In this document: positions 18,566 through 59,132 of the stretch, piece after piece
Layout of the letters: each line of letters begins with the position of its first letter
How positions within the stretch are numbered: the stretch's first letter is position 1
Assembly: GCF_000739065.1 (NCBI RefSeq)
Contig: NZ_CP009149.1
Location: 1 to 64,000 of the forward strand
Direction: 5' to 3'
DNA from: Methanocaldococcus bathoardescens
GTDB taxonomy: Archaea > AGJL01 > Methanococci > Methanococcales > Methanocaldococcaceae
DNA length: 64,000 nucleotides
Notes under the pieces: model-generated
The model's database searches: none
What the model was told of the DNA's origin: nothing
Seen by the model: only the letters and a program-made list of their open reading frames with translations
Made by a program: the position numbers and the translations under genes

Positions 18566-18631
18566 TTATTTACCTAATGGATAGTTAGGTGCTTCATTGG
18601 TAATGATAATGTTGTGAGGATGGCTCTCAAC
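18566..18631 (-). pseudogene. Second, detached copy of the guaB 3' end
   Basis: On the minus strand these 66 nt read [20 protein letters not shown], then K and stop, matching the last 21 codons of guaB with one amino-acid change (Asp to Asn) but many third-position changes. It lies ~130 bp downstream of the intact guaB terminus, separated by a GC-rich double-hairpin segment. The mostly synonymous divergence means the copies separated while both were under protein-level selection, so this is not a fresh local duplication. Confidence 0.9.
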
Positions 18632-18691
18632 GAAAGGGGCTTCGCCCCTTTTCAAACCTCAAGGATACCTCCTCGCTTCGCTCGGAGGTAT
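18632..18691. repeat. GC-rich double-hairpin element between guaB and its detached end
   Basis: Two hairpins: AAAGGGGC-TTC-GCCCCTTT (18633-18651) and ATACCTCC-(11 nt)-GGAGGTAT (18665-18691), the second with an inner GC-TTC-GC. GC content is far above the surroundings. It separates the guaB stop codon from the detached copy of its 3' end. It may also terminate guaB transcripts. Confidence 0.8.
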
Positions 18692-18698
18692 AAAGAAG

Positions 18699-20198
<1,500 letters not shown>

Positions 20199-23710: not shown

Positions 23711-23835
23711 AATAACCACAATATGTGAATTTTATATTACGCAGTATGATTGAAACAATATATAAACTTTTGCGTTAGTAAAATTTTACGCAGAATAGTA
23801 AGATTTATATATAAATAAAGCAACATTATTTATTG

Positions 23836-23951
23836 AGGGTAGCTCTGACCCTGCCCGATGACACCAACCTGTCCAATGACTCCTCGGCGACGAGGATGAG
23901 AGGGCGTTCCGTGTTGGAACCTCCACCCTTTAGGGTGGAGAGGAGGTCAGA
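23836..23951 (+). ncRNA. GC-rich structured RNA with its own promoter (candidate hgc-type or omega-like RNA)
   Basis: A ~116-nt GC-rich island in AT-rich DNA. A closing stem TCTGACC/GGTCAGA (23844-23850 with 23945-23951) surrounds GCCC/GGGC (23853-23856 with 23902-23905) enclosing hairpin TCCTCG-GCGA-CGAGGA (23881-23896, GNRA tetraloop). Two more hairpins follow, GTTCC-GTGTT-GGAAC (23906-23920) and CTCCACCC-TTTA-GGGTGGAG (23921-23940). A TATA box TTTATATATAAAT at ~23804-23816 places transcription start near 23836. It could be one of the high-GC RNAs known from M. jannaschii by GC screening, or a guide RNA scaffold of a TnpB element. Its 3' end overlaps the convergent amylase stop codon. Confidence 0.75.
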
Positions 23952-25392
23952 CAATTATAAATCCTCCAAATGCATCATGTTTTTTATCATTTTTATCTTT
24001 ATCTCCTTTTTTATCTTGGTTATAAATACTTTCTGTATCCTCTATATCATTGTTTGCTATTATGATATCTGGTTTTACAGAATTTTCTTCATTTATATTT
24101 TGTGTATCTTTTTCTTTCTGATTGTCTATAATGTTTTGATTATTTTTTGATTTAGAATTTTTGTCGATATCTTTGTTAATTTCCAATTTATTTAATACTT
24201 CTTTTATATGGTATTCAAAATCATATAAAATGTTCAAATAATTTGCATACGCGTCAAAGGGTGAATCAAAGTGACTAAAATAAGTATGAACATCCATGTC
24301 TCCAAAACCTTTAGTGCATTGATAATAAAAGTTGTCACTTGTTTGTAAAACTTTATACATCTTATAAATTTCATCAAATTTTCCTAATTTCTTTAATTTA
24401 TTTTCATTTTCTTTTATAAATACTCCAATATCCTTTAATTTTTCAAATGATATTCTCTGCATCTTATTTCCTAACCATGCACTTACATCTCTCTCAGTAT
24501 CTGCCCATGATATTGTAGAGAATTCATGCACATAAATTTCTCCTCTCGGCTCCAATCTCTCAACAACCTCACTGACATTAACAACCTCTAAATGCTCATG
24601 TTTAGCTATCTCTATAGGCAAATATCTTAAAAATTCAAATATTCCTGTTTCTTTCCAGTGATGCTCTCCAAATGTCTCATAGTCCATATAGATGTTTATA
24701 ACCTCCCCTGGTGTTGAAGCCAGCCACGTAGCATATTTATCAGCTGTTAATGGATATTGGTTCCAATCTCTTGCTGAAAACCTAAAGCCGATATCATCAC
24801 TTAATCTATAATTTCTCAGCAAAATATTCATACCATCTGGTGATTGGTAGAGATAATTTGGACTTCTCCAACCTAAAATTTTTTCTATCCCTTCTGTAAA
24901 TATTGCCTCAAACCCTAAATCTTTTGCTATCTTTGCAATTCTATTGTTGTATATTAGCTCAGTATTTCTAAATACCTTAGCTTTAAAGCCAAATATATCT
25001 TTATAAAGCTTTTTATGCATCTCAATATCTTCAATAAACTCTTCCTCACTCTCAAATAAACTTGATAATGAGTGATGATAAGTTTCAGCAATTAGTTCAA
25101 CATTTCCTGTTTTCACCAAATCTTTGAATAAATCTAACACATAATCATTAAACTCCAAAGCCTGCTCTATAAAAATTCCAGTAATTGAATAATTTACTTT
25201 AAAATCATATTCGTCAATAAGCTCTAATATCAACTCATTTGCAGGAATGTAGCATTTATTAGCTACTTTGTTAAAAATTTCTTTATTTAATTTTGTATCT
25301 ACATATTTTTCCCATAATGAATTTCCTCTCCTATTAATGTCTTTATTTAATCTGTGTGGTTGATGAACTTCGAAATTGAATGTTATTAACAT
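23947..25392 (-). CDS. GH57 alpha-amylase
   Basis: A 481-aa cytosolic glycoside hydrolase that cleaves alpha-1,4 glucans. The N-terminal TFNFEVHQPHRLNK, the nucleophile Glu in KVFRNTELIYNN, the acid/base Asp in NIYMDYETFGEHH and the WADTERDVSAWLGN segment define GH57. The last ~75 residues are a low-complexity Asn/Lys/Asp tail ending AFGGFIIV, whose stop codon lies in the GC-rich RNA element, so the original terminus may have been altered. Start chosen at the ATG after GAGATGAT. It is last in a leftward pair with the glucoamylase gene. Confidence 0.93.
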   Translation of the reverse strand: MLITFNFEVHQPHRLNKDINRRGNSLWEKYVDTKLNKEIFNKVANKCYIPANELILELIDEYDFKVNYSITGIFIEQALEFNDYVLDLFKDLVKTGNVELIAETYHHSLSSLFESEEEFIEDIEMHKKLYKDIFGFKAKVFRNTELIYNNRIAKIAKDLGFEAIFTEGIEKILGWRSPNYLYQSPDGMNILLRNYRLSDDIGFRFSARDWNQYPLTADKYATWLASTPGEVINIYMDYETFGEHHWKETGIFEFLRYLPIEIAKHEHLEVVNVSEVVERLEPRGEIYVHEFSTISWADTERDVSAWLGNKMQRISFEKLKDIGVFIKENENKLKKLGKFDEIYKMYKVLQTSDNFYYQCTKGFGDMDVHTYFSHFDSPFDAYANYLNILYDFEYHIKEVLNKLEINKDIDKNSKSKNNQNIIDNQKEKDTQNINEENSVKPDIIIANNDIEDTESIYNQDKKGDKDKNDKKHDAFGGFIIV

Positions 25393-40488: not shown

Positions 40489-41328
40489 ATGTATATGATT
40501 GAAACAAAAGATTTGTATTTTAGATATCCTGATGGGACAGAGGTTTTAAAAGGTATAAATTTTAAAGTAAAAAAAGGAGAAATGGTTTCTATATTAGGGC
40601 CGAATGGAGTAGGAAAATCAACCTTATTTTTACATTTTAATGGAATTTTAAGACCTACAAAAGGAGAGGTTTTAATAAAAGGAAAACCAATAAAATATGA
40701 CAAGAAGGGTTTAATAGAAGTTAGAAAGACTGTTGGTTTAGTTTTTCAAAATCCTGACGACCAAATCTTTGCCCCCACAGTTAAAGAAGATGTTGCCTTT
40801 GGGCCTTTAAACTTAGGATTGCCTAAGGATGAAGTTGAGAGAAGAGTTAGAGAAGCTTTAAAAGCTGTGGGAATGGAAGGATTTGAAAATAAACCTCCTC
40901 ACCATTTAAGTGGAGGTCAAAAAAAGAGAGTAGCAATAGCTGGGATTTTAGCTATGCAACCAGAAGTTATTGTCTTAGATGAGCCAACATCTGGTTTAGA
41001 TCCTGTTGGGGCATCAAAGATAATGAAACTTCTATATGACTTGAATAAAAAAGGAATGACTATAATAATCTCAACGCATGATGTGGATTTAGTTCCAGTT
41101 TATGCTGATAAGGTTTATATTATGTATAATGGGAAGATTTTGAAAGAAGGAACACCAAAAGAAGTTTTCAGTGATGTTGAGACAATAAGAAAAGCTAATT
41201 TAAGATTGCCAAGAGTTGCTCACTTAATTGAGATTTTGAATAAAGAGGATAACATCCCTATTAAATGGGGCTTCACTATTAGAGAAGTTAGGAGGAATTT
41301 AGCTGAATATTTAAAAGAAAAGTGTTAA
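40489..41328 (+). CDS. cbiO: Cobalt transporter ATP-binding subunit CbiO
   Basis: A 279-aa ABC ATPase. Walker A is LGPNGVGKST near residue 35, the Q-loop is VFQNPDDQIF, the signature HLSGGQKKRVAIAG near 140, Walker B VIVLDEPTSGLDP and the switch His in ISTHDVD. GGTGA from the end of cbiQ is its ribosome site. The 3' end (LKEKC, stop) is followed by a palindromic element and then a second version of the same end (LKEEKC, stop) at ~41432-41453. Confidence 0.96.
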   Translation: MYMIETKDLYFRYPDGTEVLKGINFKVKKGEMVSILGPNGVGKSTLFLHFNGILRPTKGEVLIKGKPIKYDKKGLIEVRKTVGLVFQNPDDQIFAPTVKEDVAFGPLNLGLPKDEVERRVREALKAVGMEGFENKPPHHLSGGQKKRVAIAGILAMQPEVIVLDEPTSGLDPVGASKIMKLLYDLNKKGMTIIISTHDVDLVPVYADKVYIMYNGKILKEGTPKEVFSDVETIRKANLRLPRVAHLIEILNKEDNIPIKWGFTIREVRRNLAEYLKEKC

Positions 41329-41336
41329 TTCATACA

Positions 41337-41430
41337 CCATAAGGGGCTTTGCCCCCTATTAGTATACCCCAAAAAATTTTTGATGAAACTTTAAGAAAGT
41401 TTCATACTAATAGAGAGTTTCCTTCCATGG
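41337..41430. repeat. Palindromic element E2 downstream of cbiO
   Basis: A 94-bp imperfect palindrome with ends ACCATAAGG and CCATGGT and an inverted core CTATTAGTAT/ATACTAATAG. GGGGCTTTGCCCC forms a strong hairpin. Sequence and layout relate it to 2407-2488 and 58029-58106. It separates the intact cbiO end from a duplicate of that end. Confidence 0.8.
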
Positions 41431-41454
41431 TTTAAAAGAAGAAAAGTGTTAATT
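41431..41454 (+). pseudogene. Detached second copy of the cbiO 3' end
   Basis: TTTAAAAGAAGAAAAGTGTT plus AA repeats the end of cbiO (41311-41328) with one extra GAA codon; in the cbiO frame it reads L K E E K C stop against L K E K C stop. Only ~24 nt, so chance cannot be ruled out on this copy alone, but it repeats the pattern seen at guaB and at the 58116 gene. Confidence 0.65.
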
Positions 41455-42387
41455 TATCATTTTACATTTGAAGATTTTTACATTTTCTTTATTTAGTTCT
41501 TTTAACAGCTCTTTCTCTTTTTCTTCATTAACTAAGATTATTACACATCCCCCTCCTCCAGCTCCTGTTAACTTTGCTCCAAAACCAAATCTATTCCCAA
41601 TATCTACAACTTTATCGAGTTTTGGTGTTGAGATATTTAATTTCTTTAATAGTTCATGATTTTTAGTCATTAATTTCCCAAAATCTTCTTTATTATCTGT
41701 TTTTAAAGAGTTTTCAATAATCTTATCTATTTTTTTAAATATTTCATCCTTATTTTCAATTTTTGCCACTTCATTAACTAATTCAGCAGTTTTTTTCTTT
41801 CTTTTTTCAGCATAAACTATTAAAAATTTACAACTTTTTAAAAACTCCTCAAATTTCCCTTCAATTTTTTTAAATTTGTTGTTTTTTATCTCTAAGATGC
41901 CTTTATATGTTATTGTTGAAGTGTCTGTAATACTTGCCTTTCCTTGAATCTCTTTCTCAACCATATAACCAAGTTTTGCAATCTCATCATCTTTAAGCTG
42001 TTTATTATAAAATTTACTAACAGTCCTTATAGTTCCAATTGTTATTGAGGCAGAGCTACCCAAACCACAGCTTATTGGAATTTTTGAGCTAATATTTATC
42101 TCAAACCCCGTTTTTGGTTCTATATTTAAATAATTAATAGTGTTTTTTATTGCACAAAGGCAGTATTTGAAATCACCAAAGTTATTTGGATTGATATTTT
42201 TTATCTCATTTAAATTCAACCTTAAGCTTTTATTTAAGTCATTTAAATTTAAAATTATTTCATTCCCATCTATATCTCTAATTTCTATAGTTGATGTTAA
42301 ATCAATAGCCATAGATATAGCCCTATAACCATAAACAACTGCATGCTCTCCAAATAATATAACCTTTGATGGTGTTTCAATTATCAT
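41449..42387 (-). CDS. mvk: Mevalonate kinase
   Basis: A 312-aa GHMP kinase that phosphorylates mevalonate for isoprenoid lipid synthesis. ETPSKVILFGEHAVVYGYRA is the N-terminal motif, ISCGLGSSASITIGTIR near residue 107 the ATP-binding motif 2, and AKLTGAGGGGCVIILV near 274 motif 3. The usual length and complete motifs indicate an active enzyme. It follows two same-strand genes of unknown function. Confidence 0.96.
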   Translation of the reverse strand: MIIETPSKVILFGEHAVVYGYRAISMAIDLTSTIEIRDIDGNEIILNLNDLNKSLRLNLNEIKNINPNNFGDFKYCLCAIKNTINYLNIEPKTGFEINISSKIPISCGLGSSASITIGTIRTVSKFYNKQLKDDEIAKLGYMVEKEIQGKASITDTSTITYKGILEIKNNKFKKIEGKFEEFLKSCKFLIVYAEKRKKKTAELVNEVAKIENKDEIFKKIDKIIENSLKTDNKEDFGKLMTKNHELLKKLNISTPKLDKVVDIGNRFGFGAKLTGAGGGGCVIILVNEEKEKELLKELNKENVKIFKCKMIN

Positions 42388-57978: not shown

Positions 57979-58006
57979 ACTTTCTTTAATTTTTTTAACC
58001 GTTTGG

Positions 58007-58030
58007 TGATAATATGAAATTTTATAATCC
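58007..58030 (+). pseudogene. Detached first copy of the ATPase gene start
   Basis: GGTGATAATATGAAATTTTA (58006 on) followed by TAATCC has a ribosome site and a start reading M-K-F-Y-N, the same five residues that begin the intact ATPase at 58116 (MKFYNRE), with synonymous differences TTT/TTC and TAT/TAC. The frame is cut off by a palindromic element. Translation from it would give only a short peptide. Confidence 0.75.
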
Positions 58031-58106
58031 ATAGGGGCAAAGCCCCTATTGGTATGCCCCACGTCCATTAAGTTGGGGCTTTCAGCCCCAATTAATGTTC
58101 CATAGG
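58029..58106. repeat. Palindromic element E3 between two copies of the ATPase gene start
   Basis: About 78 bp, bounded by CCATAGG at both sides. Hairpins AGGGGC-AAA-GCCCCT and TTGGGGCT-TTC-AGCCCCAA are strong and GC-rich. Related in design to 2407-2488 and 41337-41430. The intact gene's ribosome site GGTGAT begins at the element's right edge. Confidence 0.8.
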
Positions 58107-58115
58107 TGATTTATA

Positions 58116-59132
58116 ATGAAATTCTACAATCGAGAAAAAGAACTTAACTATCTAAAGAATTATGTTCAATTAGAACCCACCTCCATCTTATTTGTTTATG
58201 GTCCTAAGTCATCAGGTAAATCTACCGTAATGATGAGAGTTATTAAAGAATTGGAAAATAGTAATATTGTCTTTTTCTACTACAATCTAAGAAAATACGC
58301 TACACCAACAAAAGATGAGTTTTTGAGTATATTTTTTGAAAAATCAGATAAAAAATATCTATTAAATAAGTTAGAAATTAATCTAAAAATCTTTAAGTTT
58401 GGTATAGAGGAAAATTTTGATTTTAATGACGTAAAACTAAATGATGTTTTTGCTAAAATAAATGAGTGTATAAACGCAGTTATAAAAGATGGAAAAAGAC
58501 CTGTTTTGGTTATAGATGAACTCCAAAAATTAAAAAATATTTACTTCAATGGTGGGAAATCCTTATTAAACGAACTATTTAATTTATTTGTCTCTTTAAC
58601 TAAGATGGAACATCTATGTCATGTTATTTGCCTGACTTCTGATACTTTATTTATTGATAATGTCTATAGACACTCCTCCCTATCAGAAGCATCAGAGTAT
58701 TATCTAATCGACTGGCTAAAAAAACATGATATTAAAAAAATCCTAAAAGAAGAGGAATTTAATGAAAAAGAAATAGATTATTGCTTAAATTATTTATCAT
58801 TACCTTATGAGATTTCTCAATTAATAAATAATAAAAAATTAGGTTTATCAGTTGAAGAAACTATAAAACGATGGGTAAATATTGAAGCAGATGGGATAAA
58901 ATATTTAATAGACACTTCCGATTTAATTGAAGAAGAGATTTATAAAGTACTTTCTAAGTTTAAGGATAAAATAAAAATTAACTATAAAAAAGATGTTAAA
59001 AAAGAGGAAATGAAGTATATAAAGTTTTTAATTGAGAATGAAATTTTGTTCTATGATGTTATAAATGGTGTTATAAAACCAACTTCGATAAAGAAGTGGT
59101 ATGCCATAAAAGAAATTTTAGATAATAGGTGA
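58116..59132 (+). CDS. Archaeal P-loop ATPase (ATPase_2 family), second copy
   Basis: A 338-aa paralogue of the ATPase at 9795-10889. Walker A is [11 protein letters not shown] near residue 29, Walker [14 protein letters not shown] near 131, sensor [15 protein letters not shown] near 170. It begins [11 protein letters not shown]. The N-terminus has been re-created downstream of element E3. It ends 4 nt before trpE, whose ribosome site overlaps its end. Role unknown. Confidence 0.88.

Follow-up and report, generated by a model that had tools for sequence, protein, structure and literature searches.

The question raised by this locus is why the start of one ATPase gene should be present twice, once on each side of a hairpin element. 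The locus lies in a window of 64,000 nucleotides, the whole stretch of DNA analysed, which is part of a 1,607,556-base chromosome (G000) of Methanocaldococcus, a genus of thermophilic, methanogenic archaea. Read directly, positions 58005–58131 of the forward strand hold, in order, the end of proS, a ribosome site, ATG AAA TTT TAT AAT C, hairpin A, hairpin B, a second ribosome site, ATG AAA TTC TAC AAT C and the ATPase gene.

Two starts of one ATPase gene

The element, E3, consists of the two hairpins (58029–58101) and is flanked by an orphan start, GGTGATAATATGAAATTTTATAATC (58005–58029), and a working start, GGTGATTTATAATGAAATTCTACAATC (58105–58131). The orphan, which is the native ATPase start, has a GGTGA ribosome site and an ATG at 58014, encodes MKFYN and is cut after AATC; it is collinear with empty sites in two relatives, G001 and G003. 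Hairpin A (CCATAGGGGC-AAA-GCCCCTATTGG plus TATGCCCC; 58029–58060) adjoins the orphan with its CCATAG end and matches our covariance model at E = 8.7e-9, while hairpin B (GTCCATTAAGTTGGGGC-TTTCA-GCCCCAATTAATGTTCC; 58063–58101), of which dispersed copies occur elsewhere, forms the end towards the rebuilt start. Both fold as read, with a shuffle z-score of just −2.2. The rebuilt start also has a GGTGA ribosome site, with the ATG at 58116, and encodes MKFYN; the open reading frame that begins there (58116–59132) specifies a 338-residue protein of the ATPase_2 family (Pfam, E = 4.7e-54). The differences between the coding parts of the two starts are TTT/TTC and TAT/TAC, both synonymous.

The first point to consider is whether two MKFYN starts might merely be a chance likeness within AT-rich DNA. 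Taken alone, the E3 flank match is within chance and not statistically significant: its local score of 24.5 was equalled or beaten in 24% of controls placed at random and 15% of those at gene ends, and a search of the 64-kb window with the 16-mer gave no excess at three mismatches. However, the proS–ATPase junction lacks the element in G001 and G003, where the native start is TTTGGTGATAATATGAGATTTTATRAT. This start and the text upstream of it align with the E3 orphan, whereas the gene body aligns with the second copy, so that the insert comprises the element together with the second start. The duplication is secure because of these empty sites, and not from the window sequence by itself. Chance is refuted by the two relatives, the same arrangement recurs across the genome, and we regard coincidence at E3 as hardly credible. 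The claim of the first-pass annotation that two MKFYN starts with synonymous differences stand astride E3 was thus borne out, both by direct reading and by the relatives.

The same annotation had grouped E3 with two further genes in the window, guaB and cbiO, as cases of an element between two versions of a gene end, and both cases held when the duplications were measured and empty relatives found for each. On the reverse strand, an orphan guaB 3′ end of 21 amino acids lies at 18566–18631, and the attached 21-residue end at 18699–18764; the 66-bp copies are 80% identical. A two-hairpin element lies between them (18632–18698), and the site is occupied with identical junctions in G000, G006 and G013 and empty in G001, G003, G004 and G005. 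One hairpin of this otherwise orthologous insertion is inverted between G000 and G006 (locus L143; CTCCGAGCGAAGCGAGGAG vs CTCCTCGCTTCGCTCGGAG). On the forward strand, the attached cbiO 3′ end (41315–41333) is followed by a hairpin element (41334–41438, with module A at 41337–41370) and by the orphan, native end (41439–41457). This duplication is 19 bp with one mismatch. The site is empty in G006 and G001, and the orphan runs on into native downstream text, which matches the empty site in G006.

Duplicated gene ends across the genome

Elements were sought by similarity and with a covariance model derived from 20 hairpin A copies, which gave 57 matches at E ≤ 0.01 in G000 and matches in 12 of the 14 genomes of the genus. 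In G002 and G008 there were no hairpin A copies at E ≤ 0.01 and ATPase_2 relatives are present; these may serve as element-free comparison genomes. Reading the stretches around element matches in G000 yielded 64 element sites, a partial census. At each, the 200-base flanks were aligned locally, with a score of at least 35 taken as duplication. Duplicated flanks were found at 27 of the 64 sites, compared with 0.9 expected from mismatched flanks, and were not clear at the other 37. The controls gave 52 of 1500 random positions (3.5%; Fisher p = 1.9e-20 for the comparison with 27/64) and 6 of 398 gene-end positions. The excess of duplicated termini at palindromes over controls, whose absence from a genome-wide scan the first-pass annotation had named as its refutation, is therefore present, and the 27 sites support its proposal of a hairpin family lying between two versions of a gene terminus, at 5′ as well as 3′ ends.

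For most duplicated flanks, a long open reading frame begins or ends in one copy and the other is orphaned, working and orphan copies being assigned from reading-frame length and synteny rather than expression. The duplicated termini are mostly 3′ gene ends, with a few 5′ ends and two tRNA gene 3′ ends, those of tRNA-Ala and tRNA-Val (L090, 1417–1493, and L098, 1611–1686), one of which scores just under the cut-off. The duplications vary in length from about 19 to 73 bp, the copies are mostly 75–97% identical, and the inserts measure about 60–260 bp. Because the second copy restores gene ends and tRNA 3′ ends, the pairs might be viewed as attL/attR scars of site-specific integrase elements, which use gene 3′ ends and tRNA genes. 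However, about 25 different target genes, 5′ ends included, are served by one hairpin family, the cores are mostly non-identical and the inserts are too small for an integrase gene. We consider this origin extremely improbable.

Relatives provide a second line of evidence. Neighbouring-gene anchors placed 14 sites in nine relatives, six of which supplied the stretches that were read, and duplication was scored at 12 sites in every genome read, up to seven genomes. At these 12 sites the gene-end duplication was confined to genomes that bear the element, the sole exceptions being two alignments of AT-rich, low-complexity sequence in G013. Of the close sister genomes G004 and G005, for instance, only the latter has an element at s145. 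In G003, clear duplications ending in a stop codon were seen at at least two of nine sites (50 bp with two differences and 35 bp with two).

The flank test was also applied to G005, where many of the strongest module A sites lie inside CRISPR arrays; this inflates the mismatched-flank null, and replication in that genome is confounded. Elements are located within CRISPR arrays, or at their end, at L201, L202, L206, L209, L210 and L211, where CCCTATGG adjoins a repeat (GTTTAAAATCAGACC) at its first base and the repeat copy on the other side is truncated at its end; at L203 and L204 an element comes after a degenerate repeat of another kind (GTTTGAATCGATAGTCCATTAAAACAAGGATGGAAAC). Such sites bring to mind a Cas1-type integration, in which the CRISPR adaptation complex or a relative of casposase would insert the element and duplicate its target as with CRISPR repeats. 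In the G005 arrays the CCATAG end adjoins the first base of the repeat and most of the repeat is duplicated, and the element targets include gene 3′ ends and tRNA 3′ ends, both of which are also targeted by casposons. Set against this, the length of the duplication varies, from about 20 to 73 bp, and the CRISPR copies in G005 have junction text in common and may be the descendants of a single insertion. Integration of this type is, in our view, very unlikely to be the explanation.

Polarity and divergence of the two copies

The element has a preferred orientation relative to the duplicated ends. With sites read from the attached copy to the orphan, the CCATAG end of hairpin A adjoins the orphan 16 times and the working copy twice (binomial p = 0.0013); A is at both ends in two further cases and at neither junction in seven. 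The CCATAG end is usually 0 nt from the orphan. Where A is missing, its place is taken by a different hairpin (GATGAAAC..GTTTCATC or GGTTTGAAAGGGGC..), recognized by eye, and the two ends of the element usually differ, with hairpin A or D at the orphan and B or C at the working copy. As the polarity is the same at 5′ and 3′ gene ends, it is not explained by the direction of transcription. Hairpin B itself contains, in some copies, an additional element whose inverted repeats are ACCAATTATCAAAG..CTTTGATAATTGGT, apparently at TA (L016, L018 and L024; near 738.9, 1433.5 and 1086.0 kb of G000), and hence the elements nest in one another.

The differences between the copies are informative about their origin. 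Over 25 gene-terminus pairs these fall 21/20/75 by codon position, with 70 synonymous and 46 non-synonymous. Among young pairs (up to 12% apart) there are 24 synonymous and four non-synonymous differences, a non-synonymous share of 0.14, whereas simulated free drift of the orphan predicted 0.64; the lowest value in 2000 runs was 0.32, and no run came down to the observed level. For native ends compared between species the share is 0.27. Older pairs, more than 12% apart, show 46 synonymous to 42 non-synonymous differences, as the orphans decay. Drift of an identical duplicate cannot give the pattern of the young pairs, which points to separate origins, probably in different alleles or paralogs. 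The simplest reading is that they diverged as functional ends in different genomes or genes and were then joined, with the orphan decaying afterwards.

These results bear directly on plain transposition with a long target-site duplication, in which the copies would be identical at birth and then drift, the orphan being free to decay. Such an event would place the copies directly at the flanks of the element, often at 0 nt offset on one side, as is found; some pairs barely differ (guaB in G013, at 2/66 positions, and s1195 in G006), and old orphans do decay. However, the simulation rejects simple duplication followed by drift for the young pairs, the 16:2 bias in the way the element faces the gene is unexpected, and the working copy may match a species or paralog other than the one matched by the gene body. 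As a full account, plain transposition is strongly disfavoured, and we judge it unlikely.

Another reading is that the orphan is itself translated and under selection as an alternative terminus. Orphans common to several species do keep their reading frame (s1195, s745 and guaB). Yet the 3′ orphans lie behind stop codons, the one at s155 in G003 has lost its own stop, old orphans decay, and the tRNA-Ala orphan has an altered T loop, with GTTTAAAT for GTTCAAAT. It is thus highly improbable that the orphans are maintained as termini.

Signs of mixing are seen at individual sites. At s155, the working copy of G000 differs at 1/37 positions from G001 and at 9/37 from G006, while its gene body differs at 13/150 from G006 and 24/150 from G001, and its orphan at 2/37 from G006. 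At s158 the working copy is closest to G001 and the body closest to G003. At guaB, G000 and G006 have the same working copy (0/66 differences), in an identical tract that extends about 60 bases into the body, whereas their orphans differ at 10/66. The E3 working start lies within a 52-base stretch, spanning the ribosome site and about 13 codons, that matches the start of an ATPase paralog in G006 at 98% identity; compared with the G003 orthologue it has six differences in the first 30 coding bases and none in the next 30, and the body follows G003. Upstream of an ATPase paralog at 93266 in G000 we read TTAATTAATGTCCCACAGGTGATTT, resembling the hairpin B end and ribosome site of E3 (AATTAATGTTCCATAGGTGATTT), as if an element had once stood there.

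Origin of the duplicated ends

Given the element-dependent duplication, the polarity, the synonymous pattern and the empty sites in relatives, we think it fairly probable that a dispersed two-hairpin element duplicates a gene terminus and that the copies, from different alleles or paralogs, were joined by recombination. E3 is one copy of this palindromic element. Its insertion beside a gene terminus would duplicate about 20–70 bp of that terminus, leaving the gene with a working copy, then the element, then the old native terminus as an orphan at the CCATAG end. Insertions would survive mostly where the duplicated segment extends across the gene end, which leaves the gene whole. The mostly synonymous differences would reflect recombination of different alleles or paralogs in place of drift of one identical duplicate, and the E3 working start matches that of another ATPase gene.

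Two routes to this outcome can be envisaged. A long target duplication could be followed by the exchange of occupied alleles between strains, which is favoured by pairs with hardly any differences, guaB in G013 among them. Alternatively, in one step, the CCATAG end could join a homologous gene end, the element carrying its neighbouring terminus with it; the polarity and the short foreign patches favour this route. A specific form of the latter, in which the element travels with the adjoining terminus, its CCATAG end joining inside the homologous end of an allele or paralog and the other side being resolved by homologous recombination in the gene, is a tentative possibility that we hold with some doubt. 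If true, one insertion would swap in a foreign terminus and turn the native one into an orphan, and E3 would represent a small, polar, homology-assisted mobile element that exchanges gene ends without breaking its target. The earlier suggestion that these elements exchange gene ends therefore stands in part: the copies do appear to be drawn from different alleles or paralogs, but the element need not be the agent, as ordinary between-strain recombination after a long target duplication may account for them.

Relation to known repeats

As multi-copy palindromes dispersed through Methanocaldococcus genomes, the hairpins most probably belong to the known MJRE family, matched by description rather than by consensus sequence. 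MJRE are reportedly dispersed palindromes of about 100 bp, some lying within genes without destroying them. To our knowledge their description does not include duplicated diverged gene ends, fixed polarity or terminus exchange, as seen or proposed here. The elements as sequences are thus most likely not new, and the gene-end duplication seems to be unreported; a search of the openly available literature found no report of it at these elements. MJRE1-3 are given as palindromic repetitive elements of Methanocaldococcus jannaschii in Suyama, Lathe and Bork (2005, FEBS Lett 579:5281), as cited in PMC2229807.

Other families fit less well. MITEs are bounded by matching terminal inverted repeats and leave short duplications of their target. 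Like them, our elements are short, non-coding and multi-copy and insert with target duplication, but their ends are usually different hairpins, the duplications are of about 19–73 bp and not of a short fixed length, and the copies differ synonymously; an autonomous partner was sought only as the Y1 transposase (PF01797). This transposase is absent from G000 and present in only two of the 14 genomes, and REP/RAYT, which are likewise two-hairpin units close to gene ends, are rejected on that ground; we also know of no target duplication left by REPs. Against an integrase attachment-site scar, most sites lack an identical attL/attR core and the inserts have no room for an integrase. MITEs of bacteria and archaea are reviewed in PMC10969869, which also describes Rickettsia palindromic elements inserted in frame inside proteins. 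The latter are also palindromes tolerated by genes, but in our case it is a gene terminus that is doubled, with the length of the gene roughly preserved.

Prokaryotic palindromic repeats are usually catalogued by their hairpins, whereas here dozens of copies record their own arrival, in a duplicated terminus on each side, a preferred polarity and differences that indicate separate histories. They offer a test system for the spread of such elements through a dense archaeal genome without gene breakage, and suggest that element sites are places where these archaea exchange gene termini, starts as well as ends, between strains and between paralogs. For annotation, orphan starts or stops beside hairpins should be read as remnants.

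An Rfam search matched the hairpins of the window to no family. The window does contain an HgcC family RNA at 23835–23963 (Rfam RF00062, 122.9 bits). Elsewhere in G000, two element clusters of the same composition, at 145534–145730 and 146402–146597 (L071), lie about 867 bases apart and resemble a tandem duplication.
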